A DNA stretch of 22,845 bases from a virus (IMGVR_UViG_3300037488_003250:1-22845); one strand, 5' to 3'; shown: positions 4,345 to 22,845, numbered from the stretch's first letter. Numbers and translations: made by a program. Notes: generated from the sequence alone by a model not told the origin.

Positions 4345-4593
4345 TTAAACTATAAATGTATTTTTCAACAAAATCCCTAAAACTACTAATACTATAGCCA
4401 TTAACCATTTTACATTAGTATTAATGATACCTATATCAAACTTTAACTCCGATATAGCCAAAGTAAGATCATTTTTTGTAACTAACTTATCATCTTTATT
4501 ATTTACAATATCAACGATAGCCTCGGCCGTCCCTTTCGAAACGCCTGTGGCGATAATTTTTTCTATTGCTCTGTGTGTATCAAAATATGCCAT
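4345..4593 (-). CDS. DUF1640/CCDC90-like small membrane protein
   Basis: 82 residues. The N-terminus begins FDTH and continues as a helix ending AEAIVDIV (residues 4-30), matching the head of the DUF1640/CCDC90 (MCUR1-like) family, whose bacterial members are common in alphaproteobacteria. A short central coiled-coil segment (about 38-60) leads to one C-terminal transmembrane helix (63-78). It is shorter than usual for the family because the coiled coil is abbreviated. An AAAGG ribosome-binding site lies upstream. It probably forms a membrane-anchored trimer; its cellular role is unknown. The gene sits between a small secreted protein and the 168-residue membrane protein. Confidence 0.65.
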   Translation of the reverse strand: MAYFDTHRAIEKIIATGVSKGTAEAIVDIVNNKDDKLVTKNDLTLAISELKFDIGIINTNVKWLMAIVLVVLGILLKNTFIV

Positions 4594-5327: not shown

Positions 5328-6148
5328 ATGATATAGAAAAGAAATATTATCAAACATTTGAATCTGTCCGTAAGGTTGATGATAAAGGTCATGAATATTG
5401 GTTAGCTAGGGAGTTAGCCCCTTTACTTGAATATCAAAAATGGAGTAATTTCTTACAGGTTATTATAAAAGCAAAAATAGCTTGTACCCAAGCTAAATAT
5501 GTGGAATCAGACCATTTTGCTGAAGTCAGCAAAATGGTTGATATCGGGTTAGGAGCACAAAGAAAAATACGAGATATTAGACTGTCCCGATATGCTTGTT
5601 ATTTAATCGTGCAAAATGCTGATCCTTCTAAAGCTGTAATCGCTAATGGACAGACGTATTTTGCTATTCAAACTCGTAGGCAGGAGTTACAAGACGAAGC
5701 TAGTTTTACTCAGTTATCGGAAGATGAGCGCCGTATTGTCTTACGTCATGAAATGACAGAGAATAATAAAGCCCTAACAGCGGCAGCAAAAGATGCTGGT
5801 GTTATTACTTCACTTGATTATGCAATATTTCAAGATCATGGATATAAGGGGCTCTATGGTGGTATTGGAGCAAAAGAAATACATGGGCGTAAAGGTTTAA
5901 AGAAAAATCAGAAAATCCTCGATCATATGGGAAGTAGTGAACTTGCAGCTAATCTGTTTCGAGCTACTCAGACGGAAGAAAAGCTAAGACGCGATCAAAT
6001 AAAAGGAAAAATAAACGCTAACCATACTCATAATGAAGTTGGTAAAAAAGTACGAAAAACTATAAAGGAATTAGGGGGAACAATGCCAGAATTATTGCCC
6101 ACTCCTCATAAAAGTATAGGCCAATTAGAACAAAAGAAACTAAAATAA
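5324..6148 (+). CDS. DinD-like (DNA damage-inducible protein D / BRO-N family) protein
   Basis: 274 residues, the full length usual for DinD-like proteins. The N-terminal half has the BRO-N/DinD signature: YWLARELAPLLEY-x-KW-x-NF (about 24-43), HFAEVSKMVDIG (62-74), LSRYACYLIVQNADPSK (about 86-102) and TYFAIQTRRQEL (109-120). The C-terminal part has GYKGLYGG, ELAANLFRATQTEEKL and a closing KVRKTIKELGGTMPE, all typical of the family. E. coli DinD is SOS-induced and inhibits RecA filaments; phage relatives act as antirepressors. It follows the truncated BRO-N gene with an ATGA overlap. It may drive induction or modulate recombination; the family assignment is firm, the role inferred. Two perfect inverted repeats lie within its 5' part. 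Confidence 0.85.
   Translation: MNDIEKKYYQTFESVRKVDDKGHEYWLARELAPLLEYQKWSNFLQVIIKAKIACTQAKYVESDHFAEVSKMVDIGLGAQRKIRDIRLSRYACYLIVQNADPSKAVIANGQTYFAIQTRRQELQDEASFTQLSEDERRIVLRHEMTENNKALTAAAKDAGVITSLDYAIFQDHGYKGLYGGIGAKEIHGRKGLKKNQKILDHMGSSELAANLFRATQTEEKLRRDQIKGKINANHTHNEVGKKVRKTIKELGGTMPELLPTPHKSIGQLEQKKLK
5478..5495. repeat. 18-bp inverted repeat in the DinD-like gene
   Basis: TAGCTTG and CAAGCTA flank TACC. It lies 15 bases before the longer inverted repeat at 5511-5538. Confidence 0.8.
5511..5538. repeat. 28-bp inverted repeat in the DinD-like gene
   Basis: ACCATTTTGCTGA (5511-5523) and its exact complement (5526-5538) flank AG. It covers the conserved HFAEVSKMV codons, so part of the symmetry could be fixed by the protein. 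Confidence 0.85.
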
Positions 6149-7301: not shown

Positions 7302-7865
7302 ATGAAATATCCACCATCATTCTTAAGTCCACTATTAGCACAGGCAAAATTACGTTTTTCTGGGAATAATAGTGGCGGATCAACACCGCAACATAGTATA
7401 ATTGCAACCAACCATTGCAGTAATACTATGACAAATAACTCTAATATCTCCGAAATACCTACTTTCCACCAAGTTAAAGAAGAGGAGCAATATACTGATA
7501 TAGGCTTACCTCTTTCTGAAGTGGTAGCAACATTTGCTCGTAAAGCAAAAAGCATATATGAGAATTTTGAAATATCTAGCCGAGGGCAAGCGACATTAGA
7601 AAAAGCTGATAAGTTTGGTATTGAGTACGATCCTAACAACATTGATTTTCTTACCGTGCTTGCCAAAGTGCGAGAATTTGAGAAAGTCATAGCTCGAGCA
7701 GAAGAGCGTGGTATAAATTGGAAGCACTTTGGTTATCACACAATCACTACTTTAGGACTGAACTGTATTGAACAAATAGTTGAGGACGAAGAAAGAGAGG
7801 AAGAGGCTATTTATAGAAAACAGTCCTATTTAGACTTTGCCACAACTCGTGGCTTGGAGGCGTAG
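7302..7865 (+). CDS. Hypothetical protein, first gene of the recombination operon
   Basis: 187 residues from ATG 7302 with GAGG six bases upstream. Residues 1-58 are low-complexity (Ser, Asn, Thr, Pro rich) and probably disordered. From residue 66 to the end it is helical and charged (EVVATFARKAKSIYENF; VLAKVREFEKVIARAEERG), with an acidic run EDEEREEEA near 165. It reads like a compact helical domain with a flexible leader, but I recognise no family. Immediately downstream, GGAGG near its stop serves the next gene. It sits first after the controlled promoter, so it is likely an early regulator or recombination accessory. Confidence 0.65.
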   Translation: MKYPPSFLSPLLAQAKLRFSGNNSGGSTPQHSIIATNHCSNTMTNNSNISEIPTFHQVKEEEQYTDIGLPLSEVVATFARKAKSIYENFEISSRGQATLEKADKFGIEYDPNNIDFLTVLAKVREFEKVIARAEERGINWKHFGYHTITTLGLNCIEQIVEDEEREEEAIYRKQSYLDFATTRGLEA

Positions 7866-7866
7866 T

Positions 7867-8127
7867 ATGACAAAAGAACCAAAAGAAATGTTTTCAGCAG
7901 TATTTGAGAAATATGATAATGCTTCTGAGGCGCATAAAAGAAAGACACATTTTAGTGATGTGAGAAGTCGAGAAGGAGGAATAGTAAAAAAGTATATAGT
8001 ATTTGATGAAAAAGTATCCTCTACTATACCAAAAGAGTTAAGCTTAGGCGAATTTGTAGCATTTTTAGCTGATATTGAGTTTAAGAATATTCAGTTTTTA
8101 AATGTATTTGAATTAAATGGAGCATAA
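7867..8127 (+). CDS. Unrecognised family protein A, 86 residues (tandem paralogue)
   Basis: Start at ATG 7867, one base after the previous stop, chosen for the GGAGG at 7856-7860; an earlier in-frame ATG has no such site. Residues 8-77 match residues 74-143 of the next protein, 42 of 70 identical by hand. Shared blocks are KTHF-x-DVR, REGG, VFDE-x-VSS and VAFLADIEFKNI. The conserved His, Asp, Arg and Glu residues could be catalytic or binding, but no known family comes to mind. A small alpha/beta fold is likely. It lies just upstream of an exonuclease and annealase, so a DNA-processing or anti-host role is possible. Confidence 0.7.
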   Translation: MTKEPKEMFSAVFEKYDNASEAHKRKTHFSDVRSREGGIVKKYIVFDEKVSSTIPKELSLGEFVAFLADIEFKNIQFLNVFELNGA

Positions 8128-8141
8128 TTTAAAGAGGAAAT

Positions 8142-8606
8142 ATGCAGTATTTAGAAGCGTTATTTAAAGATATTGAAAAAAGTAGCAATAAAACTAATAA
8201 GATTTGTCGAAAAGCCTGGGAAAAGAAAACTTGGATAGAAGGCGGATCTCATGGCACAATGCGTCATTATACTAGCGAAGCTGATTGGACAGAATATAAA
8301 GCTGATATCGAAATGTTAGAAGATGATTGGGAAGTATATCATAATGTAGAAAGTAAATCTTTATTTACAGCGGTATTTGACAGATACGAGTACGGGAAAG
8401 AAGTACTCCGGAAAAAAACTCATTTCCGTGATGTTAGAGTAAGAGAAGGAGGCCTTGTATCTCGGAAGCTAGTTTTTGACGAAGATGTTTCAAGTAAGAT
8501 AGTTGGTCATTTAACATTCGGCGAATACGTTGCTTTTCTTGCAGATATTGAGTTTAAGAATATCGAATTTGAGTATCCGCATAAATTATCTAACGAGGTA
8601 TTATGA
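8142..8606 (+). CDS. Unrecognised family protein B, 154 residues (tandem paralogue with N-terminal extension)
   Basis: Residues 74-143 are the same domain as the 86-residue protein before it, with the REGG, VFDE and ADIEFKNI blocks nearly unchanged. Residues 1-73 are an extra N-terminal region that is Trp- and Lys-rich (AWEKKTWIEGG; ADWTEYKADIEMLEDDWEVYH), absent from protein A. AGAGGAA lies before the ATG. The TGA overlaps the ATG of the HTH gene (ATGA). The pair arose by duplication, then gain or loss of the extension. Function unknown. Confidence 0.7.
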   Translation: MQYLEALFKDIEKSSNKTNKICRKAWEKKTWIEGGSHGTMRHYTSEADWTEYKADIEMLEDDWEVYHNVESKSLFTAVFDRYEYGKEVLRKKTHFRDVRVREGGLVSRKLVFDEDVSSKIVGHLTFGEYVAFLADIEFKNIEFEYPHKLSNEVL

Positions 8607-8908
8607 GAGTAGAATTAGACAGAGAAGAAGTAATCGGCTTGCAAGAAACTGGGTTGCTCCAAAAAGAAATTGCAAAAAAGCTTGGTGTCACAGTGAAGAC
8701 GTTATCTACTTTCATGAAAGTAAATGGTATCGACACTAGAAGGCCTACTAAGTACAAAAGAAAAGCCTTGTATGAAGAAGAAATAACTATCATTAATAGT
8801 GTCAATACTGGCTACACACATATGGCAATTGAAAAAAAACGAACTATTAAGAATGACGATAAAAACCTTTTTATTCCTGAAAAATGGAATTGGAGGAGTT
8901 ATGCATAG
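8603..8908 (+). CDS. Small helix-turn-helix DNA-binding protein
   Basis: 101 residues. Residues 6-40 form a resolvase/homeodomain-like helix-turn-helix: DREEVIGLQETGLLQKEIAK, then KKLGVTVKTLSTFMKVNG, as in the DNA-binding tail of recombinases and transposases, but no catalytic domain is attached. Residues 44-60 are basic; a Trp pair sits near the C-terminus (EKWNW). It starts in an ATGA overlap with the preceding gene and its last eight bases overlap the exonuclease start. It probably regulates the recombination operon or guides a partner to DNA. Confidence 0.7.
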   Translation: MRVELDREEVIGLQETGLLQKEIAKKLGVTVKTLSTFMKVNGIDTRRPTKYKRKALYEEEITIINSVNTGYTHMAIEKKRTIKNDDKNLFIPEKWNWRSYA

Positions 8909-9815
8909 TCAGGAAAAAGAGAATTGGCTCAAGGAGCGTAAAACTTACATTGGTGGTAGTAATGTTGCTGCTGTAATGCGTTTAAATTCATATTGTACAG
9001 CTGTGGGTATATATTTAGAAAAGATATCTCCTGAAATTGATTGCACGATGAGTGAAGCCGCAAAATGGGGAATATTACTTGAGAATACTATAGCTAAAGC
9101 TTACGAGGAAAAAACCGGTTTTAATGTAGAAATAGAACCTAATGTAATATATCACAAAGAACACAAGTTTTTAGCCGCTAACATAGATAGATGGGCTAAC
9201 GGTAAAAAACATATCCTAGAGTGCAAAACTGCCGGCTTTATGATGGCCAAAGAATGGGGAGAAGAATATACCGATCAAATACCAGAAAGCTATTTATGCC
9301 AAGTTGCTTATTATGCAGCGATCTGTGATGTGGATAGAGTAGATATTGCAGTTCTAATTGGTGGGCAAGATTTTCGTATTTATACATATAATCGTAATAG
9401 AGAATTTGAGGAAAAGATTATAAAGATAGCTCAAAATTTCTGGACAAAGAATATATTACAAAAAGTACCACCAAAATGTATAAATCTTACGGATACAGCA
9501 GATTTATGGCCTAAAAGTAATGGAAGGGAAATATTAGCAGATGACCATATAATAAAAGAGATTCAAGAGTTAAAAATTATGCAATCCGAAGTAAAGCAAC
9601 TCGAAGAAGCTATTATATTAAAAAAAGTAGATATCCAAGAATTTATGCAAGATTATGACGTTTTGTCAGATAGCAATGGTCGAATTATTGCAACTTGGAA
9701 AAATTCAAGCCCGAGGGTTGCCCTTGATATTAAGCGTTTGCAAGAAGAGCATAAGGATATTTACCAGCAATACGCTAAGGAGAAAGAAGGCTCAAGAATG
9801 TTTTTAATTAAATAA
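8901..9815 (+). CDS. YqaJ-type viral exonuclease (lambda Exo-like PD-(D/E)XK)
   Basis: 304 residues from ATG 8901, chosen because GGAGGAG lies four bases upstream. It should resect double-stranded DNA ends 5'-3' for single-strand annealing. Motifs, numbered from this start: IGGSNVAAVMRLNSY (17-31), WGILLE with E61, AANIDRW with D96, ILECKT with E107 and K109 (the E-x-K of the nuclease core), and QVAYYAA with Q134. Residues about 240-300 form a helical tail. The RecT-like gene follows 13 bases later, the standard exonuclease/annealase pair of phage recombination systems. Length fits the family. Confidence in the family is high. Confidence 0.9.
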   Translation: MHSQEKENWLKERKTYIGGSNVAAVMRLNSYCTAVGIYLEKISPEIDCTMSEAAKWGILLENTIAKAYEEKTGFNVEIEPNVIYHKEHKFLAANIDRWANGKKHILECKTAGFMMAKEWGEEYTDQIPESYLCQVAYYAAICDVDRVDIAVLIGGQDFRIYTYNRNREFEEKIIKIAQNFWTKNILQKVPPKCINLTDTADLWPKSNGREILADDHIIKEIQELKIMQSEVKQLEEAIILKKVDIQEFMQDYDVLSDSNGRIIATWKNSSPRVALDIKRLQEEHKDIYQQYAKEKEGSRMFLIK

Positions 9816-9828: not shown

Positions 9829-10641
9829 ATGAGTAACTTAACCACAATTAATTCATCAAATAGTTCATTAGATATGTTTGAAATGATGGACAAAGCATAT
9901 AAATTCGCTGGAATCATGGCAAAATCAGATATCATTCCCGCTCATTATCGAGGCAAACCAGAGAATGTATTTATCGCTGTGCAAACGGCATATCGCATGA
10001 ACTTAGATCCGATGCTAGTGATGCAAAATACTTTTACTATCAGCGGCAAACTGGGGATGAATAGTACATTTGCCATATCATTAGCTAATAAAAGCGGCTT
10101 ATTCTCAAACGGTATTAGATATAAATCTGAAGGTGAAAATGATAATTTAAGGATTACCGCCTATACCAACCTTAAGCATACTAACGAAGAAATAAGTTAT
10201 ACTATAGGTATGAAAGAGGCTATCGCCGAAGGATGGACAAAGAATCCTAAATACAAGAGCTTGCCTACACTTATGTTGAGCTACAGAGCTGCAACTTTGC
10301 TTATTAGGACTCATGCGCCTGAAGTAATGAACGGTATGCACATGGTAGAGGAAATAGAAGATATTACGTTGAGCCGTAATGTAACTCCAAAAGCCCAGAC
10401 TTTAAGCGCAAGATTAGATGATTTAATAAATGTTGAAGAAACAAATATACCTGTGGCAGCAAAACTTTCAAAACTAGTTTTAACTCACAATGTACCAAAT
10501 GAGGTAGTTTATAAATGGTGTGAAAAAGCAGGCGTTTCCGCGCTCAATGAGTTAGATGACCAAAAAGCTACATCATGTATAGAATATATCAATAACAATT
10601 ATATTAATGAAGCAGAAACCTTGAGTTGTAAAGATTTATAG
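9829..10641 (+). CDS. recT: RecT family single-strand annealing protein
   Basis: 270 residues. Anneals complementary single strands made by the neighbouring YqaJ exonuclease. Family features: FIAVQTAYRMNLDPMLVMQNTF (about 48-69) followed by GKLGMNS (73-79), a central beta region, EGWTKNPKYKSLPTLMLSYRAATLLIR (about 134-160), then APEVMNGMHMVEE (163-175), where RecT proteins typically have P-E-x-x-x-G and acidic residues. The C-terminal segment (about 185-270) is more variable and helical, with a Cys-containing end. It starts 13 bases after the exonuclease stop. The system may serve genome circularisation, replication by recombination, or repair. Confidence 0.9.
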   Translation: MSNLTTINSSNSSLDMFEMMDKAYKFAGIMAKSDIIPAHYRGKPENVFIAVQTAYRMNLDPMLVMQNTFTISGKLGMNSTFAISLANKSGLFSNGIRYKSEGENDNLRITAYTNLKHTNEEISYTIGMKEAIAEGWTKNPKYKSLPTLMLSYRAATLLIRTHAPEVMNGMHMVEEIEDITLSRNVTPKAQTLSARLDDLINVEETNIPVAAKLSKLVLTHNVPNEVVYKWCEKAGVSALNELDDQKATSCIEYINNNYINEAETLSCKDL

Positions 10642-12072: not shown

Positions 12073-12342
12073 CTACTCCTTAGATACCAATCTATTTAAA
12101 TCTTTCTTTGGATCTTCTTCTTGTTCTGGCGATAAATTAATATCATTACCAGTTACTAGTTTATTAGCAAGTTCTACGATTTCTTCATATAAATTATTGG
12201 GACCAAATATATATTTAGAAAAAATAACAGTACCTGTTAATATACCGAATATGAAAGACCAATTTATAATAATCAAAGCAATAAATAATTTAGATTCTGC
12301 AATGAAATTGGCAATACGCTCTCTAAGCATGCTCCCTCTCAT
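12073..12342 (-). CDS. Small single-span membrane protein of the lysis cassette (holin or spanin candidate)
   Basis: 89 residues. Residues about 19-44 are a hydrophobic transmembrane helix preceded by a basic, amphipathic N-terminus (RGSMLRERIANFIAESK) and followed by an acidic, polar tail with QEEDPKKD. The start (12342) overlaps the endolysin gene by 20 bases; an alternative start at 12330 would give 85 residues. Last gene of the late operon, next to the endolysin. A holin-like or membrane lysis accessory is probable, but no lipobox is seen for a spanin and the single helix could be something else. Confidence 0.6.
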   Translation of the reverse strand: MRGSMLRERIANFIAESKLFIALIIINWSFIFGILTGTVIFSKYIFGPNNLYEEIVELANKLVTGNDINLSPEQEEDPKKDLNRLVSKE

Positions 12343-12763
12343 TAAATAAATTTACCTCGGCCACCCTTCTATTAGTAAGCCCATGTGATATTTTACCCTT
12401 GATCTTATTGATTTTTAAAAATCCCATTTTAGCTCCTGTATAATCATTGTTGTTAATCTTTTGTAATAGTTGGCTACGAAGAAAATTACCACTCCCCCAG
12501 TTGTATACTAAGCTTACAAGAGCATCGAATTGATTCTGGTTGAGAGGGACTTTAACTAAAGTATTTACTGTGTTTTCAGCAATATCTGCATCTTGATCTA
12601 GCAATGCTAATGCTTCCTTTTCTGTAAGCATTGTATAAGTTTCGCCATTTTGGATAACATGACCATAACCTATTGTAGCTTTACCAGCTGGACATAAATA
12701 CTTTTTAGAAGAAAACCCTTCGTATTTTTTAATTAACTCAAGTCCTTTTGATGATATTTTCAT
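12323..12763 (-). CDS. Endolysin, T4/P22-type lysozyme (GH24)
   Basis: 146 residues, normal length for a GH24 phage lysozyme. It cleaves the peptidoglycan glycan strand to release virions. Catalytic region near the N-terminus: E15 in KKYEGF, C24 in YLCPAG (Cys or Asp is usual here) and T30 in ATIGYGH, the E-x8-(D/C)-x5-T triad of the P21/P22 group. Later conserved segments are TEKEALALL (about 57-65), NQNQFDALVSLVYNWGSGNF (about 85-105) and GLTNRRVAE-LF near the end. No signal-anchor segment is present, so a holin should be required. It starts five bases after the DUF1064 stop and overlaps the small membrane protein gene. Confidence 0.9.
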   Translation of the reverse strand: MKISSKGLELIKKYEGFSSKKYLCPAGKATIGYGHVIQNGETYTMLTEKEALALLDQDADIAENTVNTLVKVPLNQNQFDALVSLVYNWGSGNFLRSQLLQKINNNDYTGAKMGFLKINKIKGKISHGLTNRRVAEVNLFNEREHA

Positions 12764-12768
12764 GTAAA

Positions 12769-13071
12769 TTAGACTTCCATTATTTTTACAGGATAAGTAG
12801 CCTCTACCTGTTTCTTTTTCAAAATATACAAAGGGGTTTTTATCCCCTTAACATCTTCAATAGTAACAGTTTCATCTTTCCAAAAGCACAGAAAATCACA
12901 TACATACTTAACATTAGCAGGCAAATGAAAAGGTACTTGTCTTAGAAAAAACAATAATTCACCTGATTTTTCAAGTAGTCTAAGCTCTCTGTAGCGCTTG
13001 GCCTCTTTTCTCGAGGCAAACTTAATACCATCAAGTTCTGTGGGAATTGCTCTGAATTTGTGTTTTAACAC
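12769..13071 (-). CDS. DUF1064 family phage nuclease
   Basis: 100 residues, the typical size of this short family of PD-(D/E)XK-like nucleases. Visible motifs: KFRAIP with DGIKFASRKEAKRY (14-27), a central QVPFHLP strand, YVCDF with D59, and EDVKG with D73 and K75, followed by TPLYILKKK (79-87), the signature order of the family. Such proteins are thought to cut branched DNA or act as phage endonucleases. Its ATG shares one base with the stop of the 240-residue gene and it sits directly ahead of the endolysin, an odd place for a nuclease. It may resolve junctions for packaging. Confidence 0.8.
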   Translation of the reverse strand: MLKHKFRAIPTELDGIKFASRKEAKRYRELRLLEKSGELLFFLRQVPFHLPANVKYVCDFLCFWKDETVTIEDVKGIKTPLYILKKKQVEATYPVKIMEV

Positions 13072-13793
13072 TACAAGCTAATCTCAAGTTTAATTTGTCT
13101 ATTCCCCATAGGCTTGTCCGAATCTCTATCCAGATAATTCTTAATATTTTGGAAAACTTTATAAGTAATACGATTCGCTAACTCATCAGACAAATCATTA
13201 CATTCCTCATGCTCTTCATGTTTATTTTCTCCTTCCATATTTGATCTCATAAAGTCAAATACAGGCGAAATATTAAACATGTTATTATCTATTTGTCTTG
13301 GCTTTTTAGAGGCAATAGTTTTTTCGCTCTTAGAATCTTCTAAAATTGGATTTATACTACGAGCATCATAAGGTTTATCCATCTTAGGAAAACGCTTTAC
13401 CATAATTTCTTTGTGTTCAATCATTTTAGGTAGATTAAAGCTATTTTTATTTTGTTTATCTAAAAATGAATGAATAAGCCCATCAATTGATTTTTCATGA
13501 CCACTCATAACTTTAGGCATAGCAATCCCTTTAATTAATGGGTTCGCTGTACGAGTATTATAAGGTTGTGCAGTTTGAGGAAAGCGTCTAACCATATTTT
13601 CTTTGCGTTCAGCTATTTTAGGCAAATTAAAACTATTCTTAGGTTGCTTATCTAAAAATGATCCCGCAATTTCTTTCATATCACTTTCATGAGATTTCAT
13701 AAATTTGGGCATAGATATCCCTTCAACAAGCGGATTCTTCGTTTTTTTCTCGATTATCTTGCGTCTTATCGCGAATTCTTTAGCTCCTACCAT
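13071..13793 (-). CDS. Hypothetical virion-associated protein with 64-residue repeats
   Basis: 240 residues. Residues 20-83 and 84-147 are two copies of a repeat with a 64-residue period; each contains NPL-x-x-GI-x-MPK, SFLDKQ-x-KNSFNLPK and a VKRFP-like stretch, then a PY-N/D-x-R-x-x-NP boundary. A third copy begins at 148 (NPIL) and decays. The remainder (160-240) is basic with an HEEHEE patch near 196. It lies between the 710-residue protein and DUF1064. Repeats in a late gene suggest a virion or assembly protein, but no family is recognised. Confidence 0.65.
   Translation of the reverse strand: MVGAKEFAIRRKIIEKKTKNPLVEGISMPKFMKSHESDMKEIAGSFLDKQPKNSFNLPKIAERKENMVRRFPQTAQPYNTRTANPLIKGIAMPKVMSGHEKSIDGLIHSFLDKQNKNSFNLPKMIEHKEIMVKRFPKMDKPYDARSINPILEDSKSEKTIASKKPRQIDNNMFNISPVFDFMRSNMEGENKHEEHEECNDLSDELANRITYKVFQNIKNYLDRDSDKPMGNRQIKLEISL
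13353..13736 (-). repeat. Two tandem copies of a 192-bp coding repeat
   Basis: The two copies encode residues 20-83 and 84-147 of the 240-residue protein, plus the start of a third. The DNA copies have diverged, so it is an old duplication. Confidence 0.75.
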
Positions 13794-13840: not shown

Positions 13841-15973
13841 TTATTTCGGATTCCAAAAAGCAGCACGCTGAGCATCAGGTACTCTTGTGAATTGTCCTTG
13901 ATATGTTTTCCAATCCTCAGACCCAAAGTATTCTCTACCAAGCCTCGCATTATCAGCCAAGAAGTCAGCTTCTGAGGGATAATTTCTATAAGCATACTGT
14001 TGATATTTATTCATTCGATTAAATTGTTCCATTGGACTCGCTGCCTTCTTTAAAGCATCTAATCTTGCTGCTTCCTCCGATGCTTTTTGTGCCAAGTTTG
14101 CATCCCAAGCTTTATTATAACCAGCATGTCTTGCAGAAGAATCTCTGGCTGCCTGACCCCAAATTTGCGAATAATTTCCGGCTGCTTGCACCTCTTTTTC
14201 AGCTGCTGCTAATTTAGCTCTTGCCGCCTCTACTCTCTTCCAATTAGCATCAGAGTTGCCACTCTTGGATCCAGTAGTATTCCACCAGTTAGTAGCTTCA
14301 TCAGACTCCCTAGTAGCATCAAGGAACCTTTGATTCATTAAATCATTGCCTCTTTGTTTTTCAAATACTCCTAATTGCCCATATAAATCATTTATTGTTT
14401 TGTCTCTAGTATCTAACTCTGCTCTACGTGCAACGTTTTCTTTTTGTAACTCACTATAATTAGTATTTAATGCTGCTAATTGATCTAGACCTATCCCTCT
14501 GTTACTCAACCCCCTAAATACATCGCCTAAAGCTCCACTTCTAGCATTTCCTGCAATTACCCCTTTCATGTGAGGCCATTCCCAAGCAGCTTCGTTTTGA
14601 TAGTTTTTATACAAATCTTCATTTTCAGCTTGTTCATTCCCCCATTTAGTAGAACCTAGCTTATTCATATCCCTAATCTTACTAAGTGTATCGCCAAACT
14701 CTTTTTGCCCCTGATCTCCATAGAGACCCAACTGCCGAAGATTAGAAAGTTGGCCTTGGTGCCCTAAGGTTAATTCAGATTTCAGTGACTCTTGTAGCAA
14801 TTTATTTCTCTCTTCAAGAGTAGCCTTTGAAACTTCTCTAGCTCTTCTTTCCGCTTCCCTCATATGTTGTGGCGATCCGTATTGATTAGCTCGAATAAAT
14901 TGATTATTAATAGCGGCTAAATCTTTTTTTAATTTCTGTTTAGCCTCGGACTCAAGGCCTTCAACGGCACCACGCATTCTCTCCGGTACTGCTTCCTCAG
15001 CTCTTTGTCCAACACCCCTATCCGTCATTAATTGTCTAAGTAACGCTTTGCGTTGGTCATAAGAAGTATCTTTAAATTTAGGATTGACAGCTTCTAAAGT
15101 ACTGTGCGAGGCTAATATTTCCGGAGGAAGGTTTGCTACTAATTGCCCCTTATATGTAGATGGTGCAGTTCTTGCTTCGCCCCAGCTTCCTACCGGCGCA
15201 GATACATCTACACCGTATGCTCTAAGAGCTTGCAAGCCCTCTTTTCCCGACTGAGCTTGAATGTCCGGGTGCGATGATCCCATATCCGCACTTATAGGCC
15301 CAAGAGCTTCCCGTAGTTTTGCCATTCGGTTATATGGCGCAGCGGCCTCTTCGTTAAATTGATTTCTTTGAGCTTGATTAACTAAATTAGTATACCCATG
15401 CTTCTGAGCACCAAATTGCTCAAGCGTTCCGGTTAAACCCTCTCTACGAGCTTCTTTTTGAGCTTGTAATGCTTGAAGAGTTCTTACAAGCTGTTCATTA
15501 CTCGACTGTTCTAAAACCCCACTTGCTCGACCTATATCTCCAAGCTCTCCTGAAGCTTCACGTAGCCCCATTTGAACATCTCTTTGACCCTTACCTCTAA
15601 ACCTATCAATTCTTGGGTCGTATGACTCTCTAAATTGTTTACGCAAAGCACCTAGTATCCTATTGTCGCTAAAATCTTGTTGCCGTTGTCCTAACATCTC
15701 CAGTTGACGAGTTGGATCAATCCCTGCATTAGAACGATTTAAGACAGTCTCTAATTTTCGTGAGTATGGAGCTGGTTTTTTAGCAAAGTCTTCCTTTAAA
15801 GTTCTTGCTCTTTGGGTAAGGCTAGACATTGGAGCTACTGTTTGCCCCCTATATACTGGATAACTTAATCCTGAAAGTCTCGCTTGATCTTTAGCTAAAA
15901 TTTTTGCCGCTTCATCAAGAAGTTCTTGAGGTGCCAAATCAGAACCATATCCCCTTCCATATTCACTACCCAT
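13841..15973 (-). CDS. Large virion protein, helical, Gln/Arg/Ala rich
   Basis: 710 residues, predicted mostly helical and coiled-coil with many Gln, Arg, Ala and Glu. Near the N-terminus is YPVYRGQTVAPMSSLTQRA (38-56), a pattern (Y-x-G-Q-x-V-A-x-x-S/T-x-L) I associate with structural proteins of short-tailed phages. Aromatic-rich segments occur near the C-terminus (about 655-700, YQQYAYRNYPSEADF; EYFGSEDWKTYQGQF). There is no signal peptide or transmembrane segment. It is in the late operon between another large virion protein and the repeat protein. It is likely an internal, neck or tail component. The function is inferred from position and that motif. Confidence 0.65.
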   Translation of the reverse strand: MGSEYGRGYGSDLAPQELLDEAAKILAKDQARLSGLSYPVYRGQTVAPMSSLTQRARTLKEDFAKKPAPYSRKLETVLNRSNAGIDPTRQLEMLGQRQQDFSDNRILGALRKQFRESYDPRIDRFRGKGQRDVQMGLREASGELGDIGRASGVLEQSSNEQLVRTLQALQAQKEARREGLTGTLEQFGAQKHGYTNLVNQAQRNQFNEEAAAPYNRMAKLREALGPISADMGSSHPDIQAQSGKEGLQALRAYGVDVSAPVGSWGEARTAPSTYKGQLVANLPPEILASHSTLEAVNPKFKDTSYDQRKALLRQLMTDRGVGQRAEEAVPERMRGAVEGLESEAKQKLKKDLAAINNQFIRANQYGSPQHMREAERRAREVSKATLEERNKLLQESLKSELTLGHQGQLSNLRQLGLYGDQGQKEFGDTLSKIRDMNKLGSTKWGNEQAENEDLYKNYQNEAAWEWPHMKGVIAGNARSGALGDVFRGLSNRGIGLDQLAALNTNYSELQKENVARRAELDTRDKTINDLYGQLGVFEKQRGNDLMNQRFLDATRESDEATNWWNTTGSKSGNSDANWKRVEAARAKLAAAEKEVQAAGNYSQIWGQAARDSSARHAGYNKAWDANLAQKASEEAARLDALKKAASPMEQFNRMNKYQQYAYRNYPSEADFLADNARLGREYFGSEDWKTYQGQFTRVPDAQRAAFWNPK

Positions 15974-15982
15974 ACTAACCTC

Positions 15983-17527
15983 TTATTTTAAATAACTTGC
16001 TAACGATTTAGCCTTTGGCGGTAACTTATTGATTATACTACCTTTATGCTTACGTATTTTTTTTAAACCCATATCTAATTTTTTTGCACCGGCAGTATTA
16101 TTGCCGTCTCCTAAATGAGCTACGACATCAGCAGGGATAACATACTCACCGTCAGAAAGCAGAGCTTGTATTTTATCATCTTGTCCGTTAGTGTCCCCTG
16201 CTATATAACGCCCTAGTCCTGAGGGATATTCCATTTCTTCGGCTTCATACATCATATTAGGAAGTATTGAACCGCCTTTTTTATAAGGTATAGGTTCGCC
16301 GCTAAATTCAGGATTATTATAATAACTTAGCCATTTACCATGCTTTTTATATTCTTCTGGAGTATTACTTTTTCGATACATAGGTTCGATATTACCTAGC
16401 CGCTCTTCTGGCAAGAACTTTTGACGAGCGATCCTTCTTCTCATCTGTTCTTCTGCCAGCAAATTAGCTTCCATACCAGCTCTATCAGCAGGGCTTAATC
16501 TAAGCGCCCTTTCTAAACGTTTTTGTTCATCCGCTAGTTGTTCTGGTGTTTTTTCTTTCTTTTCCTTTGGTCGGTTCATCAATTGGCCACCAACCGATGC
16601 TAAAGTCAAAAGATTTTCAGGTTTAGTCAGAAAGTCTTTACTGTTTCCTAGTAATTTATCAGTAAAACCCATTTCTCCTTGAGGATTAGTAATGCTAGAA
16701 GCGAGAGCACTTTGGGGAGAGCTACTCGCGCCCATATAACTACTCATATTATTCTCTCCAGGAGCAAGTAATCTTTCACCTCCAGACATGTTGCCCAAAC
16801 CTAAAGAGGGTAATATAGCATTAACATTGCCATACTTAGTAAGTGCATGTCCAACATTTGTAGCTCCCATTGCGTTAGCTCCAGTGCCAATTAAACCAGC
16901 AACAGTAGGTAATGCAGCTCCCATTCCAAAACCCCGAAGAGCTGATTGTCCTGCATCCTTCCTACCTCGTATTTTTGATCCTGCTGCCCCTCCTAATGCT
17001 CCACCTATCATTCCGCCAACTCCTGGCAAAATCATATTACCTAATACAACGCCCGCTGCTGGCCCAACTACGCTTTTAAACCATTTCTTTGGATTAGAAA
17101 AAAGCCCAAATTGCGGCAATCCAGTTTTAGGATTAATCGTCCCGCTACCGCCCATATCTTTTAATATCATAGCTTCTAGCGGGTTTATATGAGCTAATAT
17201 AGTGTCTTCACCCTTTCCTTGTTTTCTAATCATCTCAGCTAACATTGGATAAGGGCTATTTTCTGCTTTATTTTTTTTCTTTTTCACAGCTCCGCCATCA
17301 GCATAACTTACTGTATTGGGATTTTGTCTATTAGTATTAACAGCAGGAAATGATTGAGATGGCGGAGTGGGATAAGGGGCATTATTACCCATCATATTAG
17401 ATAGTACATTCCCTTGAGCATAAGGATTCTGCCCATAAGAATTTTGCGGCATTTGATTAAGATATGTATCTGTATTTAATGGCATAACCGTATTTTGATA
17501 ACCATTATTAAATCTTGTATCAAACAT
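15983..17527 (-). CDS. Phage structural protein with Gly-rich hydrophobic region and DGEYVIPADVV motif
   Basis: 514 residues from ATG 17527, chosen because GAGGAG lies four bases upstream; an upstream frame (to 17563) has no such site. The first 60 residues are Asn/Gln/Pro/Tyr-rich and disordered, followed by ADGGAVKKKK. Residues about 80-140 contain LAHINPLEAMILKDMGG and GTINPKTGLPQFG. A Gly/Ala hydrophobic stretch (about 155-190) could insert into membrane. The C-terminus has ALLSDGEYVIPADVVAHLGDG (about 455-475) and a basic end, both recurrent in podovirus-like and marine phage structural proteins. A role in ejection or tail assembly is likely. The start overlaps the 95-residue gene by eight bases. 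Confidence 0.75.
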   Translation of the reverse strand: MFDTRFNNGYQNTVMPLNTDTYLNQMPQNSYGQNPYAQGNVLSNMMGNNAPYPTPPSQSFPAVNTNRQNPNTVSYADGGAVKKKKNKAENSPYPMLAEMIRKQGKGEDTILAHINPLEAMILKDMGGSGTINPKTGLPQFGLFSNPKKWFKSVVGPAAGVVLGNMILPGVGGMIGGALGGAAGSKIRGRKDAGQSALRGFGMGAALPTVAGLIGTGANAMGATNVGHALTKYGNVNAILPSLGLGNMSGGERLLAPGENNMSSYMGASSSPQSALASSITNPQGEMGFTDKLLGNSKDFLTKPENLLTLASVGGQLMNRPKEKKEKTPEQLADEQKRLERALRLSPADRAGMEANLLAEEQMRRRIARQKFLPEERLGNIEPMYRKSNTPEEYKKHGKWLSYYNNPEFSGEPIPYKKGGSILPNMMYEAEEMEYPSGLGRYIAGDTNGQDDKIQALLSDGEYVIPADVVAHLGDGNNTAGAKKLDMGLKKIRKHKGSIINKLPPKAKSLASYLK

Positions 17528-17807
17528 TTTGCTCCTCTTCTGGATTAGTTTCATTATTAACAATTAAATAGACGATCTTCGCCCATTCTTGCCAGTCCTT
17601 AAAGTCTTCTTTTTTAGTCCCTTGAACAATAGAAAACGGCGAAGGAACACTACTACGTGCAAAAACACCGGTTCCAACTACGGCAGCTCCCCATTCTTGC
17701 CATTTATTTTCATCTTGTAGAAGGGGTAGAAACGCATTAGGGCGATCAGATACTAAAGTAGCTGCCCAATTGTTTAAAGTTATATACTCTGGCCAAATTA
17801 CTAACAT
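17520..17807 (-). CDS. Small hypothetical late protein, 95 residues
   Basis: Aromatic-rich protein with repeated Trp: residues 5, 14, 36, 39, 71 and 74 approximately, including KWQEWGAAVVG and KDWQEWAKIVY. An ARSSVPSPFSIVQG segment lies in the middle and the tail is acidic. The ATG overlaps the TAA of the stabilisation protein gene by one base (TAATG), so it is coupled. Small proteins at this position are common after gp10-like genes in short-tailed phages; I recall no function. It may stabilise the tail hub. Confidence 0.7.
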   Translation of the reverse strand: MLVIWPEYITLNNWAATLVSDRPNAFLPLLQDENKWQEWGAAVVGTGVFARSSVPSPFSIVQGTKKEDFKDWQEWAKIVYLIVNNETNPEEEQNV

Positions 17808-19369
17808 TATCTTGCATCCCCCATACCGAGTAATAGTATTATGTGTCCCACTTCAAAATTATCTATCGATCTAAATGTAAGGCTCATATTGCGCCCTTGC
17901 ACTCTCATATCAAGTTTGCCTGTATCCCTTGAAAATTGTACCGGTGCACTAGTAACTACTGGACTTTGAGCATATTCTTGCGTATTAACTAGAACCTCAA
18001 ATCTATCCGGTACTCCAGCTGTAGTTACAAAATCAGGTTCTATTCTTTGCAAATCTACCCATCTATTAATGAATTGAGACGGCATTGAACCTCTATTTGG
18101 TTTGGGTGGAAATGCTACCCATGAAAATATAGGAGTAGTAAAAGATGAAGGAATAGGTGTTGGATTGTCAGCGCCTCCTGAAAACCCATTTTCTATAACA
18201 CCAACTTCATGTCTCCAAATATTATTTGTGCCTAAATCGTTAACAAGAAATTTTCCATAGGTACTCATAAAACCAAAGTCAGGAGAAAATACGCCCGCAG
18301 TTCTAGAAATAGCCGTATCGTACCAAAAGTTCTCTCTTTTGTTGTAAACTATGGCTCTTGAATTGTCTCCAAGAACTCCTTTTACTGGGTAAAACCACCA
18401 TATTTCACCATATTTTGTATTCTTTACGCCAAAAACTTGCTGGCGTCTTTCCATATCTATATTATCGTAAAAATAATTTAGATTCATTCGGTTATCCATT
18501 TCTTGAACAATGCCGTTATAAACAAAAAATCTATCAGTCCCAGGCCAGAAAAATAGCCCATCATACTCAACTACGCATTTACTAGATAAAATAGAAGAGC
18601 TAGTAGATATCACGTCATTTTTAAAAAGTACGGCGTCACCACCTATGTTTGTCGTGCGTACTACAGAGGATAATGTCCAAAAAAGAAGAGAAGGACTATT
18701 AGAACCACCACGAATTGGACGACCATAAATCACTTTGTCTTTCGATATTGTCAAAGACCCGCTGTCTCCCCCTTCAAAAATAAAAGGATTAGCTGATTGG
18801 CTATATTGAACCAGACCATTAGAGCCATATAAAAAAAGATAAGGTGCAGCAAAACATAAACCGCCGTTAATTAGAGGATTTACCCCCTGAAGAACATTCT
18901 GGTCAACAGGGCCATTAAGGGCTTGATTAATTTCTTTTCTAAAAAATTCAGATGCAGAATTTTGGGTTATATCAAGCGCATTATTAGTTTTCATAAATAC
19001 TATGAAAGCTTTACTAGATCCTTTGTCAATAACAGTTTCCGTCTCCCACAAAACTGTTGGAGGGAATGCAGCATTTAATAAATTATTATTAGCTGCGAAT
19101 ACCCAATCAGGGGAATTAATTTGAGCAGCAAGCCCTTGTTCACTACAAAGAAAAATTAAAATTCCCCCTCGTTCCCAAGGAAAAATTGTTAAACTAGTAA
19201 CTCTCTCAGCACCATATATGGTAGTTGTCCCTTTCATTCCTCCTATCTTTTTGACTTTTCCTCGTTGGAATCTAATCCATTGTCCATCAATGCAATACTC
19301 GGATTGAAACGAAGTACCATCTCTTTGAATACCAGGGCTATATATTAATGGGTAAAGATTAGCTGTCAT
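17807..19369 (-). CDS. Packaged-DNA stabilisation protein, P22 gp10-like tail hub
   Basis: 520 residues, similar to P22 gp10 (472 residues), the hub that closes the portal channel after packaging. The N-terminal signature SPGIQRDGTSFQSEYCIDGQ, then WIRFQRGKVKKIGGM (about 30-45), is the hallmark of the family. The rest is beta-rich with blocks such as LFWTLSSVVRTT, YDGLFFWPGTDRFFVYNG and ENFWYDTAISRTAGVFS, consistent with beta-propeller-like repeats. A C-terminal domain carries the strand TGKLDMRVQGRNMSLTFRS. It is coupled on both sides by TAATG overlaps, with the adaptor upstream and the 95-residue protein downstream. Confidence 0.85.
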   Translation of the reverse strand: MTANLYPLIYSPGIQRDGTSFQSEYCIDGQWIRFQRGKVKKIGGMKGTTTIYGAERVTSLTIFPWERGGILIFLCSEQGLAAQINSPDWVFAANNNLLNAAFPPTVLWETETVIDKGSSKAFIVFMKTNNALDITQNSASEFFRKEINQALNGPVDQNVLQGVNPLINGGLCFAAPYLFLYGSNGLVQYSQSANPFIFEGGDSGSLTISKDKVIYGRPIRGGSNSPSLLFWTLSSVVRTTNIGGDAVLFKNDVISTSSSILSSKCVVEYDGLFFWPGTDRFFVYNGIVQEMDNRMNLNYFYDNIDMERRQQVFGVKNTKYGEIWWFYPVKGVLGDNSRAIVYNKRENFWYDTAISRTAGVFSPDFGFMSTYGKFLVNDLGTNNIWRHEVGVIENGFSGGADNPTPIPSSFTTPIFSWVAFPPKPNRGSMPSQFINRWVDLQRIEPDFVTTAGVPDRFEVLVNTQEYAQSPVVTSAPVQFSRDTGKLDMRVQGRNMSLTFRSIDNFEVGHIILLLGMGDAR

Positions 19370-19998
19370 TAGTCTTTATCCCTCTTTGAAATACGATCAG
19401 TGTAGAGTTTTTGCGCATCTTTGTTTACGCTCTGCAAAGCACGACTATATAAAGCTTCAAACACCTGTACACGTTCGTCATCTTTTAAAAATGGGATTGT
19501 TTCAAGCAGACAAGCATATAAAAGCAAACTCGGATATCTTAAAGTTAAAAAGTTTTCAGGGTTTTGGGCATTAAATAAAGGCAGTGCAAGATAAATCAAT
19601 TGCAGCGGATATGCGTAATCAGGAGTAGGAGCAAAGAAAAAATTATTATACTCTAATGCATTAGCATAAAATTCTGGCGTTCCTGTCAGCACTGACTTTG
19701 GCCAATAGCTTCTACAAAACTCTAAACTTCTTAGCAGCAAAAAAGATGTAGGAGCTGGATTTAATCTATCATCAATTATACTAAAGCTAACTGTTTCTTT
19801 CCAATCTGCCGGCTTTGCTAGTAATGGATTGTTTATTACCAAGTTCCCGTTTAAAACTTTTTCAAATCCTATACTTTTTGCTTCTGAATAAATTCGATTC
19901 ACTCCTTGATTAATAAAATCAGGAATCTGGTCGATAAAAAATTGATCGGTCCTATTTGAGTAATTTTGTATTTGAAGACGTAGAGAATTATAATTCAT
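19369..19998 (-). CDS. Head-tail adaptor protein (SU10/P22 gp4-type)
   Basis: 209 residues. It should bind the portal and join it to the tail hub. Pattern: an N-terminal helix (NYNSLRLQIQNYSNRTD), IPDFINQGVNRIY (about 25-37), a beta segment with ADWKETVSFSI, a central region with GTPEFYANALEYNNFFFAPTPDYAYPLQLIYLALP (about 101-135, broken here), and NPENFLTLRYPSLLLYACLLET (about 142-163), then helices ending NKDAQKLYTDR. These are the hallmarks of phage adaptor proteins. It is followed directly by the gp10-like gene through a TAATG overlap and preceded by the 711-residue gene with a one-base gap. Confidence 0.8.
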   Translation of the reverse strand: MNYNSLRLQIQNYSNRTDQFFIDQIPDFINQGVNRIYSEAKSIGFEKVLNGNLVINNPLLAKPADWKETVSFSIIDDRLNPAPTSFLLLRSLEFCRSYWPKSVLTGTPEFYANALEYNNFFFAPTPDYAYPLQLIYLALPLFNAQNPENFLTLRYPSLLLYACLLETIPFLKDDERVQVFEALYSRALQSVNKDAQKLYTDRISKRDKD

Positions 19999-19999
19999 G

Positions 20000-22135
20000 T
20001 TATTTTCCCTCTCTTTGTCTTTGGCTATTTAAAGAGTAAGCTGTTGTAGGAATGCCAACCTTTGTTAGAATTGACTTTAAACTTGCCTCATTTTTAATTG
20101 AACTTACAGGAGTTAAGAGCAACTTAGCTATATCTGGCTCTAGCAACGCTTGTTCTAATAGACGTGTTATTTGTTGCTTTTCATAATTTTTAGATAACTC
20201 ATATACCGGCGTTAAATATTTCCCACCCGGTATTTTATTTATAATTTTCTTCCCGATAGATTGTTTTACAGGGTTAGTAAGATTTTCTAAAAGAGTAGTT
20301 TGCGACTGGGTATTAGAGCCAACGGCTCTCCCCACCGTTGCAACCATATTACGCCTTTTTAAAACGCTTTTTACATCATCTAAAACCTTAACCTGGTTTT
20401 CATCAAAAATATATTGAAGCTTTCCTTTGTTTTTCTTTAAAAAATTATTTACTTTGTTATATGACAGATTCTGTTGCCCTAGCGCATTAGCTGAAGCAAG
20501 TTCAGAGGTATTTAATAACTTATCAACTACAGAGCCTCTTATCATATCAATAGTTTTCTTATCTTTTCCTACTTCGGCCATTAAAGCCTTTGTATTATTT
20601 AAACTACCACGCAATATCATGTCGGGTATTTGCTCTGGAGAAGTTAAAAACTCCTGGCCAAAAGTATCTTGTTTAACAATCTTTCCTAATAATGGCTCTT
20701 TTTCGATAGCAGAAACGGGTTTAGATAACTTAGCATAAGCAGACCGTGCTATTGCTTCCTCGGGTATTTGAGCCATGTCTGCAAGAATATTAGATTTGGC
20801 TTCTGACAAAGCTCGTACCACTTCATTATTACCGGATTTTTTAGCCGCGCCAATTCTCCCGGAGATGTCTTTTAAAGCGTTTGTTAGTTCAGCGGGTACA
20901 GGTTGACCTAAAACCTCTTTTTGAAGCTGCGATCGCGCCCCTTGTCCTAAATTACCGTATAATTTATCAAAACCTCGCGCCTCACCTTTAGATACCGCAT
21001 TACTTCTAATGATATCTTCAACATAATTGAGATTATTTTTTATATCTCCTTTTGCAAATTCACCTTCTCTTTTTAGAAAAGCTTGTGTATTTGGAAGATC
21101 AATACCTTGCTTCAGTTTATTTACTTCTTGATAAAGAGGCTCTGTAACATTTGCTCTGGCTTGTTTTCTATTTTTTAATTCTCCAAACAGATAATTTCTA
21201 ATAGCCTCTCCTTGCTGGGTCGTTTCTAAACCTATTTGAGGCGATAATTGATTTAATTGTCTGTTAATAATGCTATCGGTAATAGCTTCCTTTTCTGCAA
21301 TAGCCGGAATGTTAGGGGCTAAAGCTCTATGAAGGCCTGAAATACCTGTATTTTGAGCTAGTTCGGCAGTGTTAAGCTTAGTATTAAAAGGAGTGGGGGC
21401 ATTTAAATTCTCAAGTACTCTTGGGATATTTTTTTCACCTACTTTTTCTTTTAGAATATCACTTGCCGCACTCTTTATAGCTTTTTCTTGACCACTTTTG
21501 GTAAATCTGTTTAATAAATTGCCAGTTCCTTTTATAGAACTTGAAATTCCTCTTGCAGCTGTTGGCAAAGCAAATGCCGATCCAAGATCAGCAACTAACG
21601 GATCAACTCCACCTTCTTGCAAAGCCCCACTAGTTGCGCCGATACCAGCTCCTGTGCGGGCTAATTTTACCGCATTCAATGCACCCGCTCCTTTACCAAT
21701 CATTCCCCATGGTCCTAATGAACCAGCAAACTCAGCGGCATGTGACGCTACTCTTTGTCCACTAGTTGTAGGTTTAGGTTCTAAATCAAAACCTGTTTTT
21801 TCTTTTAGGTAGTTTCTTGCACCACTAGAAGTTGGAATACGAGAGCTTAAACTATTAATCTGAGGAGTTTCTATGTCGGAACCTGGATATCCCATTAGTT
21901 CCATCTTTCTTCTTTCTGCTTCGGCCTGTCCTCTAGCTAATCCTTCTATTCCTTGAGCCGCTAGATTAGGGATATCAGCAATAGAACCTAACCCTTTTAA
22001 AGCAGATTTACCTAGAAGAGCAGACCACGAATCGCCTTCTTCTTGTTTTTGAGATTGAATCCTATATTTGTCATAAGATTTTACCGGTAAATCCTGAGAA
22101 ACTTTTACTCTATATTTGTCATAAGATTTACTCAT
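20000..22135 (-). CDS. Large internal virion (DNA ejection) protein candidate
   Basis: 711 residues. The N-terminus carries KSYDKYR twice (about 3-9 and 19-25). A Gly/Ala-rich hydrophobic region (about 125-195, AAEFAGSLGPWGMIGKGAG; GAGIGATSGALQEGG; SAFALPTAARG) could insert in membrane. The rest is a long series of charged helices. Large proteins of this plan, beside portal, adaptor and hub genes, typically lie inside the capsid and form a channel during DNA ejection. I recognise no transglycosylase motif. It begins two bases after the stop of the gene cut by the window edge. Role inferred from layout. Confidence 0.6.
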   Translation of the reverse strand: MSKSYDKYRVKVSQDLPVKSYDKYRIQSQKQEEGDSWSALLGKSALKGLGSIADIPNLAAQGIEGLARGQAEAERRKMELMGYPGSDIETPQINSLSSRIPTSSGARNYLKEKTGFDLEPKPTTSGQRVASHAAEFAGSLGPWGMIGKGAGALNAVKLARTGAGIGATSGALQEGGVDPLVADLGSAFALPTAARGISSSIKGTGNLLNRFTKSGQEKAIKSAASDILKEKVGEKNIPRVLENLNAPTPFNTKLNTAELAQNTGISGLHRALAPNIPAIAEKEAITDSIINRQLNQLSPQIGLETTQQGEAIRNYLFGELKNRKQARANVTEPLYQEVNKLKQGIDLPNTQAFLKREGEFAKGDIKNNLNYVEDIIRSNAVSKGEARGFDKLYGNLGQGARSQLQKEVLGQPVPAELTNALKDISGRIGAAKKSGNNEVVRALSEAKSNILADMAQIPEEAIARSAYAKLSKPVSAIEKEPLLGKIVKQDTFGQEFLTSPEQIPDMILRGSLNNTKALMAEVGKDKKTIDMIRGSVVDKLLNTSELASANALGQQNLSYNKVNNFLKKNKGKLQYIFDENQVKVLDDVKSVLKRRNMVATVGRAVGSNTQSQTTLLENLTNPVKQSIGKKIINKIPGGKYLTPVYELSKNYEKQQITRLLEQALLEPDIAKLLLTPVSSIKNEASLKSILTKVGIPTTAYSLNSQRQREGK
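22062..22129 (-). repeat. 20-bp direct repeat encoding a duplicated heptapeptide
   Basis: CTATATTTGTCATAAGATTT occurs at 22062-22081 and again at 22110-22129, 48 bases apart. It encodes the two KSYDKYR copies at the start of the 711-residue protein. The DNA identity indicates a recent duplication. Confidence 0.85.
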
Positions 22136-22137
22136 TT

Positions 22138-22845
22138 TTAGACCTCATTAAAACCATCATTGATTGCATCCATAATAGCCTGCTCATCATTAGCAGGAAT
22201 TTTAATTTGTTGGCCGTTTTGATCCTGCATAAGTATAAAATCTTTGCCACTCTCTTCTGAATTTATATCCATATCTTGATTTTGAAGAGCCATATTTTCC
22301 ATTTCATCTACATCATTAGGATCTATACTGATCCCTAAATCAGCACTTAGTTTTGCCGCTTTGTAGTAGGTATCCATCTCTTTATTGATAGATCCCATTT
22401 TCTCTTTTATGGTTTCGTAATCGTCATGTTTTATATCAGGAAAATTCGGCTTTAAACGATCGTACATCCCCTGACCTAATTTACCACCACCAGCTTTAAC
22501 AGCTTCTAAAACAGCAGTTAAATTACCCATCTTTGCAGCTAAATCTTTTCTAGCCGCAGTTTCTTTTTGAAGAGTCTTTTTATTACTAAATTGACCAAAA
22601 AAATCCTTTACTGGATTAGTTATTCCTGAATAGCCTCCAATTGGTTGGAAGGTATTATCTTTTGTAAGTTTTTCTAACTCATCCCAGCTTTTATTAATTT
22701 CTTTGACAGCTAAGTAAGTATTACCTGCCTTTGTTTTAAATTTATTAGCTTGTCTTTGTTCTATTTTATCTAATGGACGGAAAGATTGACCCTTATAATC
22801 TATTAATCCATCTTGACTCCCCCCGCTGGAAGTCCTGGCATTAAC
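22138..22845 (-). CDS. Late virion protein, C-terminal 235 residues (cut by right window edge)
   Basis: The frame is open to the window edge, 105 residues beyond the first internal ATG at 22530, so the real gene starts outside and that ATG is not its start. The visible part begins with a Ser/Gly stretch, followed by charged helices (IEQRQANKFKTKAGN; EINKSWDELEKLTKD; KTLQKETAARKDL), an acidic segment (SIDPNDVDEMENMALQNQDMD) and an end with PANDEQAIMDAINDGFNEV. No membrane segment is seen. It is the first visible gene of the late operon, two bases from the ejection protein gene. It could be an internal or scaffold-like virion protein; no family recognised. Confidence 0.65.
   Translation of the reverse strand, partial: VNARTSSGGSQDGLIDYKGQSFRPLDKIEQRQANKFKTKAGNTYLAVKEINKSWDELEKLTKDNTFQPIGGYSGITNPVKDFFGQFSNKKTLQKETAARKDLAAKMGNLTAVLEAVKAGGGKLGQGMYDRLKPNFPDIKHDDYETIKEKMGSINKEMDTYYKAAKLSADLGISIDPNDVDEMENMALQNQDMDINSEESGKDFILMQDQNGQQIKIPANDEQAIMDAINDGFNEV

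Follow-up and report, generated by a model that had tools for sequence, protein, structure and literature searches.

Phages of obligate intracellular Alphaproteobacteria that appear intact are, to our knowledge, scarce; Wolbachia WO and MAnkyphage are those encountered in this analysis. A virus record of 22,845 nucleotides (IMGVR_UViG_3300037488_003250), the whole of which is here called the window, raises the question of whether a further one exists, since a sequence-only reading of positions 13841-22845 had seen there the neck and ejection module of a functional, podovirus-like phage in a putative Rickettsiales element. The window is an entire IMG/VR virus record rather than a segment of a bacterial chromosome or other bacterial DNA, and its 22,845 bp contain no recognised host sequence. 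Its right-hand genes are open at the right edge, where the record ends; portal, terminase and capsid genes are absent from it, and no match to the P22 coat family was found in it. Taken with its relatives, the window very probably covers some two fifths of a short-tailed phage genome. The phage would belong to a viral family whose hosts are obligate intracellular Alphaproteobacteria, probably Rickettsiales near Candidatus Megaira, and several members of that viral family are circular phage-plasmids.

A conserved neck module on the minus strand

The gene order first read between 13841 and 22845 was confirmed: seven intact, nearly contiguous frames lie on the minus strand, encoding, 5' to 3', proteins of 235 (5'-open), 711, 209, 520, 95, 526 and 710 aa, neighbouring frames either overlapping slightly (twice as TAATG) or standing no more than 9 bp apart. 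The six complete module genes are under purifying selection, with dN/dS of 0.04-0.42 in every pairwise comparison with close relatives, and the frames are therefore maintained as proteins. The same module gene order was found in several independent contigs which, together with these ratios, makes the arrangement more than chance.

The 209-aa protein (19369-19998, minus strand) is an SU10/gp4-like head-to-tail adaptor, as had been proposed, matching the SU10_adaptor family (PF24175, 6.5e-20) and, in a profile search of the PDB, the SU10 adaptor structure 7z47 (1.9e-10) and the Pa223 adaptor 9nwi_A. Next to it, the 520-aa protein (17807-19369, minus strand) matched phrog_3287 (9.6e-25) and, by profile, the podovirus nozzles 9nwi_Y (3.8e-15) and 8zkk/8zkm (VP1 gp16; 3.4e-10). 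Its predicted structure was of low-to-moderate confidence (pLDDT 55), and the best Foldseek matches of this model were the nozzles of Pa223 (1.7e-16), VP1, SU10 and Pam1, with P22 gp10 also retrieved (3.5e-6); profile and predicted fold thus agree in identifying this protein as the gp10-like tail hub or nozzle named in the sequence-only reading. An adaptor ring and a nozzle/hub of the P22/SU10 kind are the parts expected of a podovirus. The small Trp-rich protein noticed beside the hub (17520-17807, minus strand) has 95 aa, six of them Trp, and is 39-89% identical to its counterparts in relatives and Megaira plasmids.

Three further proteins (p711, p710 and p526) are probable ejection proteins, a label drawn from their position, their composition and the analogy with T7 and P22; of the "ejection module" originally described, the neck part is borne out by sequence and fold, whereas the ejection part is positional, with no family match behind it. 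The 235-aa frame at the record end (22138-22845, minus strand) is the C-terminal part of a virion protein of about 400 aa (p400), being 80% identical to the full-length 400-aa protein of the relative G006. The 711-aa protein (p711; 20000-22135, minus strand; dN/dS 0.09-0.17) is predicted to be all-helical, its model (pLDDT 38) being unusable as a fold beyond that; it had no match in 50,697 phage records, while relatives are present on Megaira plasmids. The 710-aa protein (p710; 13841-15973, minus strand; dN/dS 0.30-0.39), a probable internal or ejection protein, occurred on two Megaira plasmids only among 72,556 plasmids. Neither p711 nor p710 matched any protein family, and their profiles retrieved nothing from the PDB. 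Relatives of p400, p711 and p710 were found only in the phage group of the window and on symbiont plasmids, in searches that covered parts of some free-living phage genomes.

The third, p526 (526 aa; 15983-17527, minus strand), carries the DGEYVIPADVV motif and is probably a membrane-active ejection protein. The TTG start listed for it (17563) was set mechanically; the ATG at 17527 coincides with an invariant Met, and the G006 protein starts there. Residues 165-200 form a hydrophobic stretch of glycine-zipper type, which would be compatible with membrane insertion, the Gly-zipper_Omp match itself (0.0048) lying below the cut-off. The match of p526 to phrog_6090 is confined to the 40-aa motif, and a role as tape measure was rejected, as only 40 residues are matched and genes of a long tail were not recognised. 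A single sub-significant chitinase match from the PDB profile search was discarded.

Within the module, p526 is 98% identical to its counterpart in L004, the neighbouring genes being 90-95% identical, and G002 and L003 have a divergent version in place of the 711-aa gene; both patterns point to mosaic swapping inside the module.

Replication and lysis genes of the window

The remainder of the window encodes a putative replication and lysis set. A 523-aa replication-initiator-like protein (210-1781, minus strand), whose C-terminus resembles DnaA-N by inspection, is 72% identical over 329 aa to its G002 counterpart and has a relative in MAnkyphage; a single-query tblastn search of plasmids gave no match. 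An 82-aa DUF1640/CCDC90-like protein (4345-4593, minus strand) is 49% identical to the CCDC90-like protein of MAnkyphage and 41-42% to Megaira plasmid counterparts. On the plus strand are a YqaJ/RecE-like exonuclease (8799-9815; PF09588, 3e-30) and a RecT/Bet single-strand annealing protein (9829-10641; phrog_561, 7.4e-54), and on the minus strand a phage lysozyme-type endolysin (12323-12763; PF00959, 6.8e-40) and a DUF1064/Holliday-junction-resolvase-like protein (12769-13071; PF06356, 7.4e-16; phrog_190, 1.3e-26).

A 240-aa protein (13071-13793, minus strand) has tandem repeat units of about 60 residues, visible as an internal blastn repeat (13358-13469 and 13552-13661), the number of which seems to vary between relatives. 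The adjacent genes at 7837-8127 and 8142-8606 look like tandem paralogues and are conserved in relatives. The DinD/Bro-N gene (5324-6148), 60-63% identical at the protein level to DinD of Thiothrix, E. coli and Neisseria, was probably acquired horizontally; its best matches are scattered, and it was rejected as a signal of the host.

Close relatives carry complete structural sets

Head genes had been anticipated beyond the right edge, and close relatives do carry portal, terminase and capsid genes there; terminase and capsid were neither missing nor decayed in those examined. The 45.9 kb contig G002, which begins inside the divergent 711-aa gene, encodes adaptor, hub, 95-aa, 526-aa and 710-aa proteins 74-97% identical to those of the window, as well as terminase, portal, GroES, scaffold, a capsid protein of 302 aa and ParA, while G006 spans from portal to RecT. 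In G002 and G005 the large terminase (TerL; phrog_38, 7e-81) and portal (phrog_1216, 7e-25) were accompanied by GroES and by a capsid protein which, in the relatives, matches phrog_371 (8e-7) and is homologous to annotated capsids; a profile of this protein retrieved nothing from the PDB. The terminase, portal and HK97-type capsid characteristic of Caudoviricetes are thus found in the relatives, the window ending before these genes.

Two relatives, G014 (55,280 bp) and G015 (48,229 bp), carry exact repeats of 127 bp at their ends, as is typical of circular assemblies; both are likely complete genomes, with the order TerL-portal-GroES-scaffold-capsid-spike-p400-p711-adaptor-hub-p95-p526-p710. 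The capsid protein was present in 61 IMG/VR loci from many metagenomes, most at 76-100% identity, and the longer loci have complete structural sets. No tail-tube, terminator, sheath or full-length tape-measure gene was recognised in G014, G015 or G002/G006, where several proteins belong to no family and the tape-measure family match is limited to 40-60 aa around the DGEYVIP motif.

No integrase (PF00589) was found in the window, in eight virus relatives (G014 and G015 included) or in the Megaira plasmid CP113869, and one is carried by the Megaira plasmid pPCS109. ParA is present in G002, G013, G018 and three plasmids (CP113869, pPCS109 and pBealeia1), and was not found in G014, G015, MAnkyphage or the window fragment; as G014, G015 and MAnkyphage do without it, the plasmid state is not general.

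Further genes were noticed in members of the family. A patatin-like phospholipase gene lies in the tail/spike block of many members (for example L109:17988-19148, L112:10985-12187, G005, G008, CP113869 at 1465-2553, pPCS109 and MAnkyphage), with more than 20 capsid-bearing loci having it, whereas a search of nine stretches from free-living relatives did not find it. Members also encode a beta-barrel or porin of the outer membrane, predicted to be secreted, often near the terminase gene (L014:9459-10169, L110:15223-15924, L103:9193-10473), and could possibly serve surface conversion or superinfection exclusion. The MFS transporter of G013 (L107:16241-17524) is 50% identical to one on Megaira pPCS109, and the SSF symporter of G002, of which G014 has a 45% relative, finds its best plasmid matches in Megaira.

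Related elements are plasmids of intracellular symbionts

When 72,556 plasmids were searched with the hub, the portal and p710, only three matched: CP113869 and pPCS109 of Candidatus Megaira polyxenophila (Rickettsiales), and pBealeia1 of Candidatus Bealeia (Holosporales), the latter with hub and portal but not p710.

CP113869.1, plasmid unnamed2 of Candidatus Megaira polyxenophila NDG2 (64.4 kb, circular), comes from a hybrid Nanopore/Illumina assembly (PMC10847448) and is annotated as a plasmid encoding mostly hypothetical proteins. Like the group of the window, it has counterparts of TerL, portal, GroES, scaffold, capsid, adaptor, hub, the 95-aa protein, p526, p710, p400 and p711, and it also shares the exonuclease, RecT and DUF1640; TerL, portal, GroES, capsid, adaptor, hub, p526, p710 and p711 are full-length, and the set is apparently intact. 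The G002 ParA shares 85.5% identity with the one on this plasmid, the next plasmid reaching 58%. It differs in that structural identities are only 28-48%, p526-p710-p400-p711 form a separate opposing block, a RuvC-like protein stands in place of DUF1064, and no lysozyme homologue was found. A second NDG2 plasmid, unnamed3 (CP113870.1), encodes a terminase (16738-18321) 50% identical to that of G002, together with very large SecA-like proteins, and gave no match to the capsid profile.

The pBealeia1 plasmid (NZ_CP133271.1, Candidatus Bealeia paramacronuclearis) shares the portal (37%), capsid (51-56%), GroES, scaffold and adaptor, but its hub is in three pieces, its terminase region is broken and p400 and p711 are fragments. 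It also differs from the group of the window, in whose members no R-body genes were found, by carrying six RebB R-body genes; a decayed relative of the head-neck block and the RebB genes thus stand on one plasmid (L134, 2344-4635 and 30825-44877), and by sequence pBealeia1 appears to connect the phage family with the R-body killer system, to which phage-like particles have long been tied. Among the non-subscription papers found on Rickettsiales phage-plasmids and on Megaira/Megaera phages, none describes these plasmids as phages.

A structural set combined with replication and partition genes, the features of a phage-plasmid, was found in CP113869 and pPCS109 and, by gene content, in G002 and G013. 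For some members of the family, phage-plasmid is the description that fits best, and it would likely apply to the phage of the window, a fragment that has an initiator-like protein but no ParA.

Host signal and comparison with free-living phages

The window's group and the symbiont plasmids joined each other apart from free-living podoviruses in the portal tree (support 100/100), in the capsid tree (100/99) and in the hub tree, built without Bealeia (98/99). In the adaptor tree the Bealeia sequence fell with free-living phages, a single clade not being rejected (p-AU 0.16). Gene matches were dominated by Megaira: except for the capsid, for which the closest named relative is from Holosporales (Bealeia), the closest matches for most genes were Megaira plasmids and phage. 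The four best plasmid matches of the exonuclease were all from Candidatus Megaira (51-58%, the next at 34%), compared with at most 37% identity in 398 other Pseudomonadota genomes. A scan of GTDB genomes with the RecT profile retrieved one gammaproteobacterial MAG, and a scan of GTDB species genomes for the pattern of close relatives gave no capsid match, so that GTDB genomes yielded no host assignment; in the 398 Pseudomonadota genomes the capsid profile had strong matches in two and weak ones in three more, all of 3-4 Mb.

Nine window proteins match MAnkyphage_25.80 (OP381185.1), a phage of Megaira polyxenophila that carries a patatin gene. Shared are the replication initiator, CCDC90/DUF1640, the exonuclease (58%), RecT (62-63%, for which, at 63%, it is the best phage match), the lysozyme (47%) and DUF1064 (70%); in contrast, the head and tail of MAnkyphage are encoded by other genes, with T7-like gp11/gp12 annotations, and no match to the hub, adaptor or capsid was seen.

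Among cultured virions, those of HTVC023P-type pelagiphages, of CRP roseophages and of the Caulobacter RW cluster come nearest, in keeping with the likeness to short-tailed phages of free-living, including marine, bacteria that had been noticed (Pelagibacter HTVC023P/HTVC027P, Roseobacter CRP-901/902, Caulobacter RW group). HTVC023P-type phages have been described as Podoviridae with terminase, GroES, helicase and DNA polymerase A as core genes (PMC9599517). They and CRP-901/902 share with the window's group the GroES-scaffold-capsid order, portal, TerL and a distant hub, but p400/p711/p710, exonuclease/RecT and ParA were not found in the stretches searched. Terminase and GroES are present in the window's group, whereas DNA polymerase A, found in HTVC023P (the positive control) and in DSL-LC04, was absent from all members tested, G014 and G015 included, and membership in the HTVC023P type was rejected on this ground. 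The Caulobacter RW group (GB2A, RLK, KcrB) shares the hub (30-33%), the adaptor (38%), a protein with the DGEYVIPADVV motif and the capsid (35%), and differs by its 62 kb size, a G+C content of 64% over the fetched stretch, other replication genes and the absence of p710/p711/p400 from that stretch. RW-group phages have been reported without an identified major capsid gene (PMC11053796); L025:2160-3074 aligns with annotated capsid proteins and is likely to be it.

Alternative explanations

On these likenesses one could take the window for part of a common lytic podovirus (HTVC023P/CRP/Caulobacter RW-like) that infects free-living bacteria in water and has no more than some genes in common with Rickettsiales elements: the capsid is about 43% identical to that of pelagiphages, so that its identity to Megaira plasmids (about 41%) is no higher, the hub is homologous to those of pelagiphages, roseophages and Caulobacter phages, the GroES-scaffold-capsid order is common to them, and ParA is missing from two likely complete relatives. 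We consider this distinctly improbable, as portal and capsid trees place the group with the symbiont plasmids, p400, p711 and p710 did not turn up in the stretches fetched from free-living relatives, DNA polymerase A is absent from all members tested, and for replication and lysis the closest genes are those of Megaira elements. That the phage is instead a phage-plasmid of Holosporales or of another intracellular lineage is unlikely, if somewhat less so; the capsid speaks for it, being 51-56% identical to that of the Bealeia plasmid against about 41% for Megaira plasmids, with Bealeia nearer to the window's group in the capsid tree (93/85), but Megaira is the nearer in the portal tree (100/98), and the Bealeia exonuclease (about 30% or less) and ParA (27%) are far below those of Megaira (51-58% and 86%). 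The suggestion of a Rickettsiales element has indirect support from the Megaira plasmids and the Megaira phage, with the refinement that the wider clade takes in a Holosporales plasmid, and the host of the window's phage is probably a member of Rickettsiales.

Decay does occur in related elements, the pPCS109 hub being cut by transposase genes and that of Bealeia lying in three pieces, and the window might by extension be what is left of a prophage that has been domesticated or is decaying and has ceased to produce virions. This is very unlikely given that all window frames are intact with dN/dS of 0.04-0.42, and that 61 loci hold relatives, with complete structural sets in the longer of them. 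The earlier description as a functional phage agrees with the intact frames, the purifying selection and the intact relatives, particle production itself being predicted from sequence.

A model for the phage and its significance

For a short-tailed phage of intracellular Alphaproteobacteria, the preferred reading, the portal encoded beyond the right edge would bear the SU10-type adaptor ring and then the beta-propeller nozzle/hub, forming a short tail. Adsorption would take place through spike proteins, upon which p400, p711 and p710, with the Gly-zipper protein p526, may exit together with the DNA to form the lining of a channel through the bacterial envelope. The phage DNA would circularise and replicate with the exonuclease/RecT pair and the DnaA-like initiator, ParA would partition it in those members that have ParA, and the lysozyme would release the progeny.

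Phage-like particles linked with R-bodies in Paramecium symbionts have long lacked an identity. It is conceivable, and we put it forward tentatively, that a short-tailed phage-plasmid family circulates in the intracellular Alphaproteobacteria of protists (Rickettsiales and Holosporales), where a patatin-like phospholipase, often encoded in its virion gene block, could aid the crossing of eukaryotic membranes; that the phage-derived backbone of one R-body plasmid or more came from this family; and that it is a candidate for the R-body-associated particles of Paramecium symbionts. What is new is a whole family with complete structural sets, some members of which are plasmids of named symbionts. 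Such a family would be a route of DNA transfer between symbionts sharing one eukaryotic cell; it names a concrete culture for a particle search, Megaira NDG2 in Euplotes, and the old question of R-bodies and phages may become testable by sequence.
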